Shown here: positions 2,820 to 8,459 of the stretch, one piece after another
How positions within the stretch are numbered: position 1 is the first letter of the stretch
Layout: the number at the start of each line of letters is the position of its first letter
Source of the DNA: Tetmemena sp. SeJ-2015
Lineage: Eukaryota > Ciliophora > Spirotrichea > Sporadotrichida > Oxytrichidae
Length of the DNA: 64,000 nt
Assembly: GCA_027382625.1 (NCBI GenBank)
Contig: JAJKFJ010021187.1
Coordinates: forward strand, 1 to 64,000
Reading direction: 5' to 3'
The notes under the pieces: model-generated
The model's database searches: none
The model's input: only the letters and a program-made list of their open reading frames with translations
What the model was told of the DNA's origin: nothing
Translations under genes and position numbers: made by a program

Positions 2820-5800
2820 ATGATGTTATAAAGCTCTAAATTATCGTCTAAAATGCTTGAGAGACTGCATTCTAAAATTAGGTCCAAAAATTAATCTGCA
2901 TTAAGGACTTCTGTAGTGCCAACATAGAGAGCTCCTGATAAGACTTAATCATCAATCAAAACTAAAAAGGACAGAATTATTGTTGCAAATGAACTAGAGA
3001 TTCAAGACTCCTAAGAAATTCAGAAAAATACTTAATACAAACATAATGGAATCAAATATATAATTCAATTATTTAAAATAAATATAATAGGAATCACACA
3101 TATTATTCATTAAACTAAATAAAATAGATATGTCTTCAATTTTAATTATTCTAACAATCAGGGTGGTAGTCAAAAAGGAAATAAACGGTTGAAGTATTTG
3201 ATTTAGCTTGTTGATGGCGTGTCTGTAGTCTATTTCAGTTTGAAAGAAACACTCTAATCTAGTTCAAATTTAATTGAGAACAGAAATTAAATTAAATGTG
3301 CTTTATTAAACCTACGCATTACGCATTAATTAAATTAAAAGCTAATTGGAAGTGACTAGTTCATTGGTTCATTGGTTCATTAGTTCACTGGTACACTGGT
3401 GCATCGGTACATTAAAGGCGTACTTTATGTCACACTCGAATTGTACTAATGCACTAATGCACTAATGCACTACTCAGATAAGGTGGAGTAATTAGATGCG
3501 GATTGAATAATTAATAGCTGCACTGGGGAATAGGGTTTAGGGTGTGTGTGAATATAATATTTAAGCAAATAATAGTTGGAAATATCATAGTCCTTCAATG
3601 TGATGCCTGCTCTTCTGCGTCTCCTTCATTTTCAATATAGGTCTCTGTGCCAGCCTCAGTCTCTGCCCCTACTGCGTGAGCTTGTCCGCCCTCCCGAAGA
3701 AGCCTGATCTCAAAACACTTCGCTAGGTCAAGTGCTTTCAAAGGGAACTCCTTCGACGGCTTCCTTCCATCCTTAGTCATGCGGACTAAGACTGTTCTAT
3801 TCTCAAATGCTTCGACCTCCTCATTCTTTAGTTCTTTGAGTGGGTTTGAGTTAGATGAAGCGATAACTTTCCAGCCTTGATATCTCATCTCATTCGCTCC
3901 CCATTTGATGTTGACGGGAAACCCTTCCCCCTCCATCAACAGCTTCATTCTCGCCAAGTTCTTCCTGCTCAGGAAATTCGGCATATTGATCTCATTCATT
4001 ATCACGAGTTGGGGGTCGTCTCCAATAGATTTTCTGTCCACTATGAAGTTCCCTGCCCCATCCGTAAGTGGCTCAGTCAGGAATATTTCCTGAATGTGAC
4101 GAATCAGAGTGCTCTTGCCCGTGTTTGATTACCCATACATCCAAAAGGTGCAAACCTTCGGGTCTAGCTTGCTGAAGATCACCTCGTAAAGTCCATCCAC
4201 GGCCTTGAGAAGGTTGTAATCTGCTAGAAAGCTATCGGTTACTGGGGCTTTGCTCTGAAGTGTCCTGTCCTTGGAATATTGAGTCTCGATGAAGAGCTGA
4301 AGCTGCTCTATCACATCTCTCCTTTACTTAGGTAGGGCTCCCACCTTTTCGTGCATATCGAAGTGGATCTCTATTTGCTGTTTGTTCTTGGCCAGCTTTT
4401 ACAAGGAGGAGTGATCTTTTATGTTCTATAGAACAGGTCCTTGTACGATTTCACCTCTCCTGCTTGCATCTTTTTAATCGTGTCCTGAATGAACACCTCG
4501 TCTTTTTGCTGCTTGTCAGGATCATCGCTCTTTTTGGATGACTGTCGACTGCGATTACCTTCAGTCAACCTCATGACCACCGTTTCCTTGAGCCCAAAAA
4601 CCATTGAGATATCGCCAGCTTATTTGAAAAGCACTCGTATTTTCCTATCGGAAACTCTCACGTATTTGAGCCCCAAGCTTTCAAGGAACCGCTGGCCGAG
4701 ATAGCGGGTGGACGTGAAGTACTCTTTGGAGAGCCCACCGAAGCAAGGCAAGATAGTTAGAGCCAAATAGAGTTCAGGCTTATTGAGCAATTGGAAGAAG
4801 GCCACTTAGTCTACCTGGAGTATGCCTGTTTGTATCTTGGCGCAGAGGGAGGCATGGTTTAGCTGTTGGTCCTTAGTATCGAGGTCGAAAACAAAGAATG
4901 CTTTGGTATTGTAGTTCTTGGCTGCCGGTAGCTGGTTCATCATGGTCGTAAATAATATCTAACTGAGCCAGGCGCCATTTCTTAAGTATAAAATTTATAG
5001 ACTTTAAATATTCACACACACCCTAAACCCTATTCCCCAGTGCAGCTATTAATTATTCAATCCGCATCTAATTACTCCACCTTATCTGAGTAGTGCATTA
5101 GTGCATTAGTGCATTAGTACAATTCGAGTGTGACATAAAGTACGCCTTTAATGTACCGATGCACCAGTGTACCAGTGAACTAATGAACCAATGAACCAAT
5201 GAACTAGTCACTTCCAATTAGCTTTTAATTTAATTAATGCGTAATGCGTAGGTTTAATAAAGCACATTTAATTTAATTTCTGTTCTCAATTAAATTTGAA
5301 CTAGATTAGAGTGTTTCTTTCAAACTGAAATAGACTACAGACACGCCATCAACAAGCTAAATCAAATACTTCAACCGTTTATTTCCTTTTTGACTACCAC
5401 CCTGATTGTTAGAATATTAAAAATATATTTGCAAAATTAGTTTTGCAAATTATCTTTAATTAATTTTATGTTTTTAACAAAAGTAAATTTAATAATCTTG
5501 ATACTTTAAATATCAAAGACTCTGGCAAATCTTAAAATTCATAGGAAAGCAACATTCGCATGGATGATCCCATTTACCTATAAGAAAATAATTTTCAGCA
5601 ATAAAGCCCAGATAAAACCAAGAGTATTCTATAAAGCTGCAGATTCTACAAAATACAATAACAAGAGGAGCTAAATTTGAGACAATAGGTTCCTTATGAT
5701 TATTTTTTTTAAATAAAAGTTTTTCTTACTAAATAATTTGTGATGGAATAAGAGAAATTTAAGATGAACTTAAGCAAATAAATGAAGTAAGTTGTTTGGA

Positions 5801-8459
5801 CAATTTAAGAAAGCTACTTACTTAAACTTAATTTCATAATTAAGGTTTTATAGTTAAAAATTTGTTTATTAGAGTTTGATGGATTTGGAGTTGGACAACA
5901 AAGTTCATGCAAAAGTGAATGAAAAGTATAATACAGGCGCCAGCAAGATGGCCATAAAGATAAGGGATAGAATGCATTCAAAAGATTATTAAAGCTCTAA
6001 GTATTCCCAGAATAATTTAATTAATATCTAGCTATGTTTATATGCAATGAATTAATACTATGATTCAGCACGGGATGTAAAATATCAGTAAATGCTTTAA
6101 TAGACTATCTTAGGGTATTTTTCCATTGGAGTTGCAAAAGTTTGACGACTTCAATCGATTTTGCAATAAGACTTACATTGAGATTAAGGAAAGAGAGAAG
6201 AAAAACCCTTTCTAAGTTGCCAATTTAGAGTAAGAAAGTCAAAAGAAATACAACAATTTTTAACTCTTTACTTTAGGATAAAAGCAGAAAGAGACAAGCA
6301 CATTTCAATTCTTGAAAACTATATACTCGGTCTTTCAGGTTTCTCAACAATCTCTAAACAAATTCTCAAGGAATGTGCTTAAAGGATAAAGACATATTCC
6401 TTCACGAGAGGATAACCAATTATTTCAAAAGGTTCAAAGCCTCAAGAAATAATAAAATTCTTTATAAAATTCTTTATTAGAAGAACTATATATAATCTTT
6501 CAAGGAACAGTACTAAAGACATAGAAGGCATTCGATTTATTAACTAAAAAGGAACAACTCAAAAAGTATCTTCCTCAATAGAAGTTTGGCAGATAGTTGC
6601 TCCTTAATATTTCAAGCGCCTAGAATACTTAACTGTTCGATTAAGAAGAGTAAGAATAGATCCAATTTATGTTATTATTGTGTATTCAATTTTGAATAGT
6701 CTAATAGTCTTGGTGAATATCTGCACTCTGAACAAGTCATAGGTTTAGATTGTTTGCTTTCAGAAACCAAGACTCTCTCGGATCATTCATATGTATGCTA
6801 TAGTGAAACCGCATCCTGTCTAGTACTTCACTTCCTAGATTTCAAACAAATAAGACAAAAGTTTTACAAGCAAGAAACTCTCCAAAACAGTTTGACAAAA
6901 TGTATAAATGTGATTACATTTCTAAGTTTGTTTTTCAAGCAATTCAGTGTGTGCAAAACGTGGAGTCAAAGCAAACTTGACATCTTCTGCACTTATTTGT
7001 AGCTCTAGTTCTGTAGTAAGAACTAGTTAGTAGTGAGTGAGAACACTCACATTTTTAAAAATAAAAGTCAACCTATCTCTATCTCGTTTATTGTGTTATT
7101 TAAGAGGTTATCTTTGTGAAGAAAGGAAAACTGAGGTTGGAAAAGGAAATAACGATTGATCATACCAACTATTGGCCCACAGGAGTTAAGAACTGGGAAG
7201 TAAATACTACTAAAAGCAGAATGATCCACTCCATTATGACCATTGAGGAGAGTTAATACATAGGAGTAAATCAAATGAAAGTGGGGCAAGTTTATCCTGG
7301 ATCTTTGATAGCTGATGAAGATGACACGGAGTTAATCATTATCAACAAAGAACACTTCTTTGTCTGTAAGAAATTTTATCACTTTATTTCATCTGAAGCT
7401 TATTAATCTTTTTAGTGTTCACACAAAAAGAGATACAAGACTTAATAGATAATTGCAAGGTTAATTTTCCTGACGAAAGAGAAGTAAAGGTCAAGCTCTT
7501 TGCTGACTAGAAATTCAAGCAGATCCGAAACATCGCTCTGATGGATGCGACTAATACAAATAGAATGCCTGAGTGCTATAGAGACTTTTACATGGAGTAG
7601 GGTACGAAGCGTTTGATAACCTGGGCTCACCTGTTCGAGAGCCAGCAGCATCCCAACCGTCAAAAGAGTCTTTAACTCAATAAGTAGAAACTCAAACTAA
7701 AGAGTGATTTAGAAAGAGATAGCAAGGGTGGAGAAGCCAAAACTACGAGGAAAATGAGCCAAGAATCTAGAAACCTCAACTCAAGCACGAGAGGCTATAG
7801 TGAGATGCATAATAGAGATAGCTTTTAGAGTCCTGTGAAAGCTAAGAAAGAGTTTGAAACTTAGAAAAGCTAAAGATAATTTAGGTCAAACAATAACAAC
7901 AGTAACCTTCTGAGTCATATGGAAAATATTTTAAATATGAATGAGTGAGATAAGGCAAAACATCAGAAAAGGGAGCTATAATATAGCAGAGGTAAATGAA
8001 TAAACATCGAGAAATAATCTACAAGATTAGTTCCTTACTTAGAGTTTGTCAAAAACTTAAAAATAGTCGAAGACGCCGTTGAGAACCTATAAATAGGTAA
8101 AAGATGAACTTATTGCTAGCTAAAAGCGATCTCCTTTCAAAATACAAGTTTAGTCAGAGTATAGTAACAACAACAATGATGATCTTAAGAAAACTGCTTT
8201 TGAATAAATTATTTCAATGAATGATTTGATTCTTATTTATGTATAAAGTTATGAGGAAGATTCTTAGAAAACTTTCAACAAGAGGTAAAAGACTTAAAGA
8301 AGACCTATCATTGAGATTATTTATTTAACTAATATATTTCTAGAGATTTCCAGAGAGAAAATAAGTTAAGCTGCTTATAAAAATGCTATGAAGGTGAAAA
8401 ACGACATGACTAATGAAGTTGCTACGCTTGTAATATAAAAGATAGTATAGAACTCTTGA
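2820..8459 (+). CDS. Protein with two cyclic-nucleotide-binding domains
   Basis: The first coding segment begins ATGATG at 2820. It is cut at 3004 by a 2.5 kb IES and resumes at 5523 in frame. After a coiled-coil stretch, a first cNMP-binding domain starts near 6400 with a GQPIISKG motif, then PQELYIIFQG and, near 6700-6830, LHSEQVIG and a C-terminal beta-roll strand. IESs at 6444-6485 and 6654-6699 must be removed to read it. A second domain (about 7100-7440) has IFVKKGKLRLEKE and a GQVYPGS-like loop, split by an intron at 7366-7415. The tail is long, polar and Q/S/N-rich and stops at 8457-8459. A frame change near 7945 is unresolved. No kinase or channel domain is visible, so this is probably a regulatory or ciliary cNMP sensor. 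Confidence 0.75.
3147..3555 (+). repeat. Left terminal inverted repeat (409 bp)
   Basis: It starts TATTCTAACAATCAGGG and ends GTGTGTGAATAT. The reverse complement of 5008-5416 matches it throughout my base-by-base reading. Its inner end holds GGGTTTAGGG followed by a GT run. Positions 3261-3305 resemble the ends of the two MITEs at 25070 and 40743. Confidence 0.9.
3358..3471. repeat. Opposed iteron arrays in the left TIR
   Basis: Seven directly repeated 8-mers of consensus RGTNCAYT occupy 3358-3413 (AGTTCATT, GGTTCATT twice, AGTTCACT, GGTACACT, GGTGCATC, GGTACATT). After a 26-bp spacer, four copies of the same 8-mer occur in inverse orientation at 3440-3471 (ATTGTACT, then AATGCACT three times). 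This is the form expected of Rep-binding iterons around an origin, and the two arrays can pair as an imperfect hairpin. Confidence 0.75.
3595..4943 (-). CDS. SF3 helicase / Rep-like replication protein
   Basis: The only coding region of the TIR element. The C-terminal half has the superfamily-3 helicase set in order: Walker A GQSNTGKST, a hydrophobic strand ending in NE (Walker B position), a B' block with VNIKW, and motif C ASSNSNP. This is the pattern of Rep/NS1-type proteins of small ssDNA replicons. The glutamine of Walker A is encoded by TAA, so the gene uses the ciliate code. The N-terminal half (about 170 codons from ATG 4943) shows no HUH nuclease motif that I can identify. The N- and C-terminal frames differ by one base near 4430. 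Either the gene carries a frameshift, or there are two overlapping ORFs, the second starting at an ATG near 4360. The tail is acidic. Confidence 0.75.
5008..5416 (-). repeat. Right terminal inverted repeat (409 bp)
   Basis: Inverted copy of 3147-3555, ending GTTAGAATA at 5416. The apparent lack of differences between the arms points to recent insertion or ongoing correction between the arms. Confidence 0.9.
5092..5205. repeat. Opposed iteron arrays in the right TIR
   Basis: Mirror image of the arrays in the left TIR: AGTGCATT-type copies first, then the seven AATGAACY/AGTGTACC-type copies reading inward. It comes from the same inverted repeat and supplies a second potential Rep-binding site. 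Confidence 0.75.
6444..6485. other. IES, pointer AAGAA
   Basis: AAGAA at 6444-6448 and 6481-6485 bounds a 37-nt insert. Deletion joins KPQE to LYIIFQG, the correct order within a cNMP-binding domain, and removes a tandem AAAATTCTTTAT pair. Confidence 0.85.
6654..6699. other. IES, pointer GAATAG
   Basis: GAATAG at 6654-6659 and 6694-6699; removing 40 nt joins the middle and C-terminal parts of the first cNMP-binding domain, avoiding a TGA at 6693. Confidence 0.8.

Follow-up and report, generated by a model that had tools for sequence, protein, structure and literature searches.

How does an element with long terminal inverted repeats (TIRs) replicate and move when its one recognisable gene codes for a putative SF3 helicase? 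DNA transposons are usually classified by the transposase that they encode, and the question is raised by the element located at 3147..5416 (no strand assigned) of the window, which is the whole stretch of 64,000 nucleotides that was analysed. The element is 2,270 bp long including the TA at each end. Its limits were set by the identical inverted arms that start from TA on both sides and by the terminal motif found at both ends. The left TIR (409 bp, 3147..3555, + strand) and the right TIR (409 bp, 5008..5416, - strand) were delimited by arm comparison. Starting at the flanking TA, both TIRs are the same base for base over exactly 409 bp, and the initial annotation was correct in describing a 2.27-kb element with identical TIRs of this length. 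The repeat finder gives 417 bp for the window arms, where the excess consists of a few matching flank bases. The outer tip of the window element, which is referred to as tip 1, consists of TA followed by TTCTAACAATCAGGGTGGTAGTCAAAA. Tip 1 is located at 3147..3175 (+ strand) and, according to the terminal-motif scan, at 5388..5416 (- strand).

The window element belongs to a large family of TIR transposons in the germline genome. The genome searched is the same germline assembly, which comprises 146 Mb in 5,213 contigs. The window TIR has 46 matches in the assembly. The helicase part has at least 133 protein matches (129 of 375 candidates scored) with identity down to about 30%. The terminal motif TATTCTNACAATCARGGKKGWRGTCAAAA is found at 288 + 277 = 565 places with at most two mismatches, where the reversed control gives 0. 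The initial annotation had proposed a search for further copies with the same TIRs and had named an assembly artefact as the alternative; the many further copies in the same assembly show that the TIR pair is no such artefact. Among the matches listed, 33 inverted pairs of tip 1 were counted by eye, where 22 pairs are 2.1-2.4 kb, five pairs are about 1.3 kb, and six pairs have other sizes (0.8-4.5 kb). Nine tip-1 pairs of 2.0-2.4 kb were picked for having no match in the helicase protein search, and all of them (9/9) match the protein profile, mostly with broken frames. The protein profile finds nothing in L078, a 1.3-kb tip-1 element that is the sole element of that size scanned. The TIR identity is often more than 99% within one copy and is down to 70-76% between copies. 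At C115:7303-8109 (L021), a helicase fragment is accompanied by two TIR copies that have the same orientation and a spacing of 51 bp, and this pair may represent a nested insertion or a tandem junction.

The gene of the window element is split over two overlapping minus-strand frames (3595-4515, and 4311 to the first Met at 4943). The SF3 helicase part (3595..4515, - strand) ends with TGA and has matches below the cut-off to the Pfam families DUF5906 (E 0.002) and RNA_helicase (E 0.005). The N-terminal part (4420..4943, - strand; table 6 translation) lies in the other frame and contains a conserved domain. The Walker A of the window helicase is GQSNTGKS when TAA and TAG are read as Gln, and its Gln is the TAA codon at 4129..4131 (- strand); a TAA for Gln inside Walker A had been read from the sequence in the first place. 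This code suggests that the host is a ciliate. Contig C4839 differs from window 3598-7596 by 2 mismatches and one single-base gap over 4,000 bp. The same gene is a single uninterrupted frame in this near-identical contig, so the frame break in the window copy may reflect an allelic difference or an error of sequencing. Programmed frameshifting is an unlikely source of the two frames since C4839 and C2755 (L030, L034) have the same stretch in one frame. Long single frames are found in other relatives, for example C3361 (441 aa), C3384 (440 aa), and C3161 (452 aa), and many other copies of the helicase gene are broken. No second long gene was recognised between the window arms in the ORF list and Pfam scans. 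Structure prediction for the two pieces of the window gene gives mean pLDDT of 39.7 and 32.1, values too low for the models to assign the N-terminal domain.

The helicase was characterised from an alignment of eight proteins, where seven proteins are 28-59% identical to the first. Many helicase positions are invariant in this alignment. Walker A (GxxxxGK[ST]) is present in 8/8 members. The Glu of Walker B and the Asn of motif C do not vary across the eight rows, where regular expressions recover Walker B in 6/8 and motif C in 7/8 members. DUF5906 is matched by 8/8 members (best E 9.8e-7) and is above the curated cut-off for C1083 only. RNA_helicase is matched by 7/8 members, below the cut-off where a cut-off is shown, and Parvo_NS1 is matched by 6/8 members (best E 0.0028), also below the cut-off. 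A search of the family profiles against solved structures gives a chain annotated as Primase (6k9e/6k9c), with E 0.015 and 0.073 and a match that covers the helicase region, and two adenylyl-sulfate kinases score higher through the P-loop alone in the search that gives E 0.073. The motif order and the weak family matches are those of an SF3 helicase, and the protein probably belongs to this superfamily as far as can be judged from sequence. The SF3 helicase gene named in the initial annotation thus acquired a profile match, which is above the cut-off in C1083 and below it in the window piece.

The N-terminal domain has one K and two Y that are invariant in 8/8 aligned proteins. No HxH or HxQ motif is present in the first 150 residues of the eight aligned proteins, and no Asp/Glu column reaches 6/8 over the same N-terminal 150 residues. 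Pfam gives nothing convincing for the N-terminal domain, where the best E is 0.0097 to an unrelated family. HUH-domain families are absent from the Pfam families listed for the window ORFs, the eight relatives, and the N-terminal domain. The scanned ORFs of the window and the eight relatives have no match to a DDE transposase, in line with the early remark that sets the element apart from TBE, and no Pfam match to a capsid gene. No outside relatives were found among 8,000 and 670 scored candidates from a large protein set, in IMG/VR, in GTDB genomes, or in plasmids (with one relative as query), where absence is weak evidence as these searches pick candidates by short shared words or patterns. 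The suggested relation to Rep proteins and ssDNA viruses is retained in part. The SF3 helicase with its weak DUF5906/NS1-type fit remains, but an HUH Rep (0/8) and a known ssDNA virus relative were not found.

The insertion sites were compared to describe how the elements enter the genome. TA is present on both sides in 16/17 end pairs (two pairs are from one locus), with C3361 as the exception. The joined-flank probes identified an empty site for at least 3/10, where the other seven, including that of the window, do not count as negatives; 38/40 matches listed in this search are from one repeat family. The filled and empty sites are C2816 and C505, C3358 and C280, and C3480 and a repeat copy on C1827. 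All three empty sites have exactly one TA, their filled counterparts have two, and the flanks are colinear. Tc1/mariner enzymes duplicate TA on insertion, and TA duplication is typical of DDE enzymes. The three empty sites therefore exhibit the TA target duplication that is the hallmark of Tc1/mariner, and this duplication points to DDE-type insertion over rolling-circle integration. PIF/Harbinger, which has TWA duplication, was rejected as the duplication is TA only. Insertion is indistinguishable from precise excision at C2816/C505 and C3358/C280. The comparison at C3480 argues for insertion because the other listed copies of the host repeat are without the element. The end-to-end junction scan of the fetched loci gave two loose matches that were not counted as junctions, and no extrachromosomal form was seen.

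The element of the window lies within a putative IES (3004..5522, no strand assigned) with uncertain boundaries. The candidate pointers are ATCAAA at 3051/5512 and AAGACTC at 3004/5516, and with either join the surrounding reading frame would stay open, starting from about 2774. The two flanks share nine repeats of 7-8 bp, so neither candidate pointer is significant by itself. The proposal that the element is inside a pointer-bounded IES is thus consistent with the open frame after either join, but the pointers do not stand out by repeat length. The surrounding gene had been taken for a cNMP-binding protein gene, and this identity was dropped since seven ORF pieces have no Pfam support with E up to 0.1. 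TBEs can also sit in IESs (PMC9797194).

The TIRs contain mirrored repeats. The window TIR has tandem 8-bp repeats, a GGCGTA core, and then similar repeats on the opposite strand beyond the core, all at about 210-330 bp from its end. The tandem iteron-like repeats (NNCAYTRG) of the left TIR are located at 3359..3412 (+ strand) and have period 8 at 28/32 positions, with 0/200 shuffles as high. The similar repeats on the opposite strand are located on the inner side of the left TIR at 3442..3472 (- strand), where the mirrored match score is 35 and the null maximum is 22 (0/200 shuffles). The repeat finder gives the mirror of both clusters in the right TIR, with the tandem 8-bp repeats at 5151..5204 (- strand) and the inverted cluster at 5091..5121 (+ strand). 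The mirrored match in region 170-370 is above all 200 Markov shuffles in 11/15 TIRs including the window, where several TIRs were taken per subfamily and hence are not independent. The shuffles as high in the other TIRs are 3/200 for L041, 8 for L047 (an AT-rich match), 24 for L056, and 109 for L011. Tandem periodicity alone is above all shuffles in 4/15 TIRs (window, L037, L060, and L061). The core was placeable in 14/15 TIRs in the fixed-core version of the test, where the match is above all 300 shuffles in 6/14, and the left-right match of a TIR is higher than every pairing with other groups in 6/14. The repeat sequence varies between subfamilies, which would be consistent with joint change of an initiator and its sites. 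The mirrored repeats resemble an initiator-bound origin in anatomy. A box with sequence GGGAATAGGGTTTAGGGTGTGTGTG is found at the inner TIR edge (window 3526-3550 and 5013-5037), immediately ahead of the gene start, and is possibly a promoter. The stretch GGGGAATAGGGTTT of this box is also found in L037, L018, L055, and L011 and is absent from L041, L060, and L061.

The outermost 20 bp or so of the elements are of three types. Tip 2 (TATAGGATGAATACRAAAGG) is found at 85 + 76 places and tip 3 (TATAGWTAGGAATTTAATAG) at 70 + 66 places, both with at most one mismatch and a control of 0. The tips were compared with the helicase tree of 31 pieces, which includes some short rows and one long branch (L085). 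The tip-3 element L051 and the tip-2 element L053 form a sister pair in this tree with support of 100/98, and their helicases are 94% identical over 401 residues. The copy of L053 is broken or truncated in the N-terminal domain, as its frame begins only within that domain. C3205 is the sister of the window helicase with support of 100/98 (93% over 272 columns), and it has tip 2 at the left end and tip 1 at the right end. The two ends of this hybrid element (L010:1190-3441, which is C3205:25189-27440) differ over the outer 100 bp or so and are 98% identical in the 295 bp that follow. A further grouping, of L062 (tip 2) and L060 (tip 1), has support of 89/86. Tip exchange is claimed for the two strongest cases only (L051/L053 and C3205/window) because of the short rows and the long branch of L085.

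Other elements also carry these tips. L082:1-2001 (C1918:43390-45390) contains a tip-3 element of about 1.97 kb with 65-bp identical TIRs and internal mirrored repeats. Its protein of 435 aa has a GNAT-like domain (PF00583, E 0.0018, slightly under the cut-off) and a Cys/His-rich C-terminus. This GNAT-like protein has 112 genome matches, where the best ten, own locus included, are 93-97% identical, and several of the best ten (C1880, C3546, C3239, C1794, and C3547) are found between tip-3 pairs. Pfam recognises no transposase in the L082 element, and no SF3 gene was seen in the tip-3 GNAT-like elements. L083:1-1911 (C1802) contains a 1.89-kb tip-2 element with 64-bp TIRs and mirrored repeats like those of L082, with no gene recognised.

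The genome has at least 150 matches to DDE_3 genes. No tip places were found within 3 kb of DDE_3 matches among the matches listed (by eye), and the nearest is about 4.6 kb away on C3177. Four DDE_3 loci were fetched, where L067 (C2133) is the one with visible ends. No DDE partner with the same ends was found among the loci fetched and the matches listed. The DDE_3 locus at L067:557-2659 lies between short inverted repeats, with TATAG at the left, a similarity to tips 2 and 3 that gives no more than a lead; the right end reads TAATAG with no longer shared stretch. The GC content is 60% in L066 (C3167) and 50% in L068 (C1213), compared to 33% in the window, and these two DDE_3 loci are possibly contaminant contigs.

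The selection on the gene was estimated as dN/dS by NG86 for 8 chosen pairs from 15 long open frames, some of which are incomplete at one end (e.g. C2816 and C3808). The divergent pairs have dN/dS of 0.115 (C4839-C3358), 0.122 (C2816-C1083), and 0.204 (C3161-C3808). The three close pairs have higher values (0.325, 0.524, and 0.692), as in young or decaying copies. Two further pairs have saturated dS, with pN/pS of 0.32 and 0.35. The low dN/dS of the divergent copies and the conserved motifs argue that the protein is in use.

We propose that these elements are replicon-like transposons where the SF3 protein would drive replication and a TA-specific transposase would cut the ends in trans, a reading for which we see about even prospects. 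The N-terminal domain would bind the TIR repeats and load the SF3 helicase there. The element would then be replicated from origins in its two ends without nicking, in the manner of polyoma/papillomavirus-type initiators. The outer tip would be recognised by a DDE transposase specific for TA, which the host or another element would provide in trans and which would perform both the cutting and the insertion. A trans-acting cutter is supported because sister helicases carry different tips (L051/L053 and C3205/window) and because tip 3 also ends the elements with the GNAT-like gene. However, no transposase that uses tips 1-3 was found in the elements scanned, which counts against this reading. 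The same applies to the extrachromosomal form, of which none was seen, and to the TIRs where the mirrored-repeat test failed (L011 and L056). More tentatively, and with somewhat less than even confidence, the family may represent a new class of eukaryotic DNA transposons. This class would be defined by a non-nicking SF3 initiator, mirrored iteron origins in the TIRs, and insertion by a trans-acting TA transposase via swappable tips of about 20 bp that are common to unrelated cargo elements (the GNAT-like gene class).

Part of this evidence is also consistent with ordinary non-autonomous Tc1/mariner-type elements, where the helicase is a once-captured passenger that is irrelevant to their spread. 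The TA duplication, the abundance of DDE_3 genes, and L078, which has the same tips and no protein-profile match, would all be accounted for. However, a passenger agrees poorly with the conserved motifs and with divergent copies that have dN/dS of 0.12-0.20, or with mirrored repeats that are kept in most tested TIRs while their sequence shifts between subfamilies, and we consider this explanation unlikely. The SF3 protein could instead be the transposase itself or direct all mobility, with the K, Y, Y cluster as an unrecognised nuclease site and no need of a partner. It is the sole gene recognised in the nine sampled 2.0-2.4 kb tip-1 elements, it has low dN/dS in divergent pairs, and the three residues are invariant in 8/8 proteins. 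The different tips of sister helicases (L051/L053 and C3205/window), the tip 3 on GNAT-like elements where no SF3 gene was seen, and the TA duplication that is typical of DDE enzymes such as those of Tc1/mariner argue against it and make it quite unlikely.

An endogenous parvovirus-like or CRESS-like virus with HUH nicking and hairpin ends that has lost its capsid is suggested by the SF3 domain with weak NS1 similarity, by the long TIRs, and by precedents in print for Rep genes in TIR elements (PMC3198968). This origin is disfavoured and has a low probability, given the HUH motif in 0/8 proteins, the scanned ORFs without a capsid match, the TA duplication, and the absence of a viral relative in the searches made. 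The GC-rich DDE_3 loci (2/4 fetched, L066 and L068) indicate that the assembly may hold foreign contigs. However, an assembly artefact or contamination as the source of the family itself is refuted, since further copies lie on many contigs and their flanks differ. It also has the empty sites and the in-frame TAA/TAG codons against it, and its probability is negligible.

The replicon-like transposons proposed here can be compared to known systems. Parvovirus NS1/Rep proteins have the SF3 helicase in the C-terminal half, and the viruses have repeats in their inverted ends. The window element is similar to these and to CRESS Rep in both the position of the SF3 helicase and the repeats in inverted ends, but it differs in having no HUH nuclease motif, no capsid match, and very low sequence similarity. 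The large T antigen and E1 initiators of polyoma/papillomaviruses bind mirrored sites and combine a non-nicking DNA-binding domain with an SF3 helicase. Helicase loading at mirrored sites would match the anatomy found here, where the likeness is in anatomy alone and not in N-terminal sequence. TBE and Tec elements have three ORFs, among them a Tc1/mariner-type transposase. The family is like TBE and Tec (Tc1/mariner; hypotrichs and Euplotes) in being abundant in ciliate germline genomes, and unlike them it has one recognisable gene and no recognised transposase. Eukaryotic genomes with Rep genes in TIR elements are already known (PMC3198968). The examples are a geminivirus-like transposon of Tuber melanosporum, which has TIRs of 37 bp and two transposase ORFs and lacks an obvious TSD, and a parvovirus-like element of Saccoglossus (acorn worm) with a capsid-like ORF (PMC3198968). 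Like these elements, the window element has a Rep/NS1-type gene with TIRs and is repeated in a eukaryotic genome, but it has 409-bp TIRs and TA duplication, with no transposase or capsid gene recognised and no HUH motif. An SF3-only, TA-inserting, tip-swapping transposon in a ciliate was not found in the open-access literature, as judged by titles and abstract openings.

The significance of the family comes from a putative replication helicase kept under selection, no known transposase recognised, and the exchange of the tips, which are what a transposase would read. The family would be categorically new if it does replicate from the TIRs and insert in trans. Replication would be separated from integration in a transposon family, and small DNA replicons would be naturally connected with transposons through it. 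The rise in copy number would also become testable in a genome that deletes its transposons in each sexual cycle.
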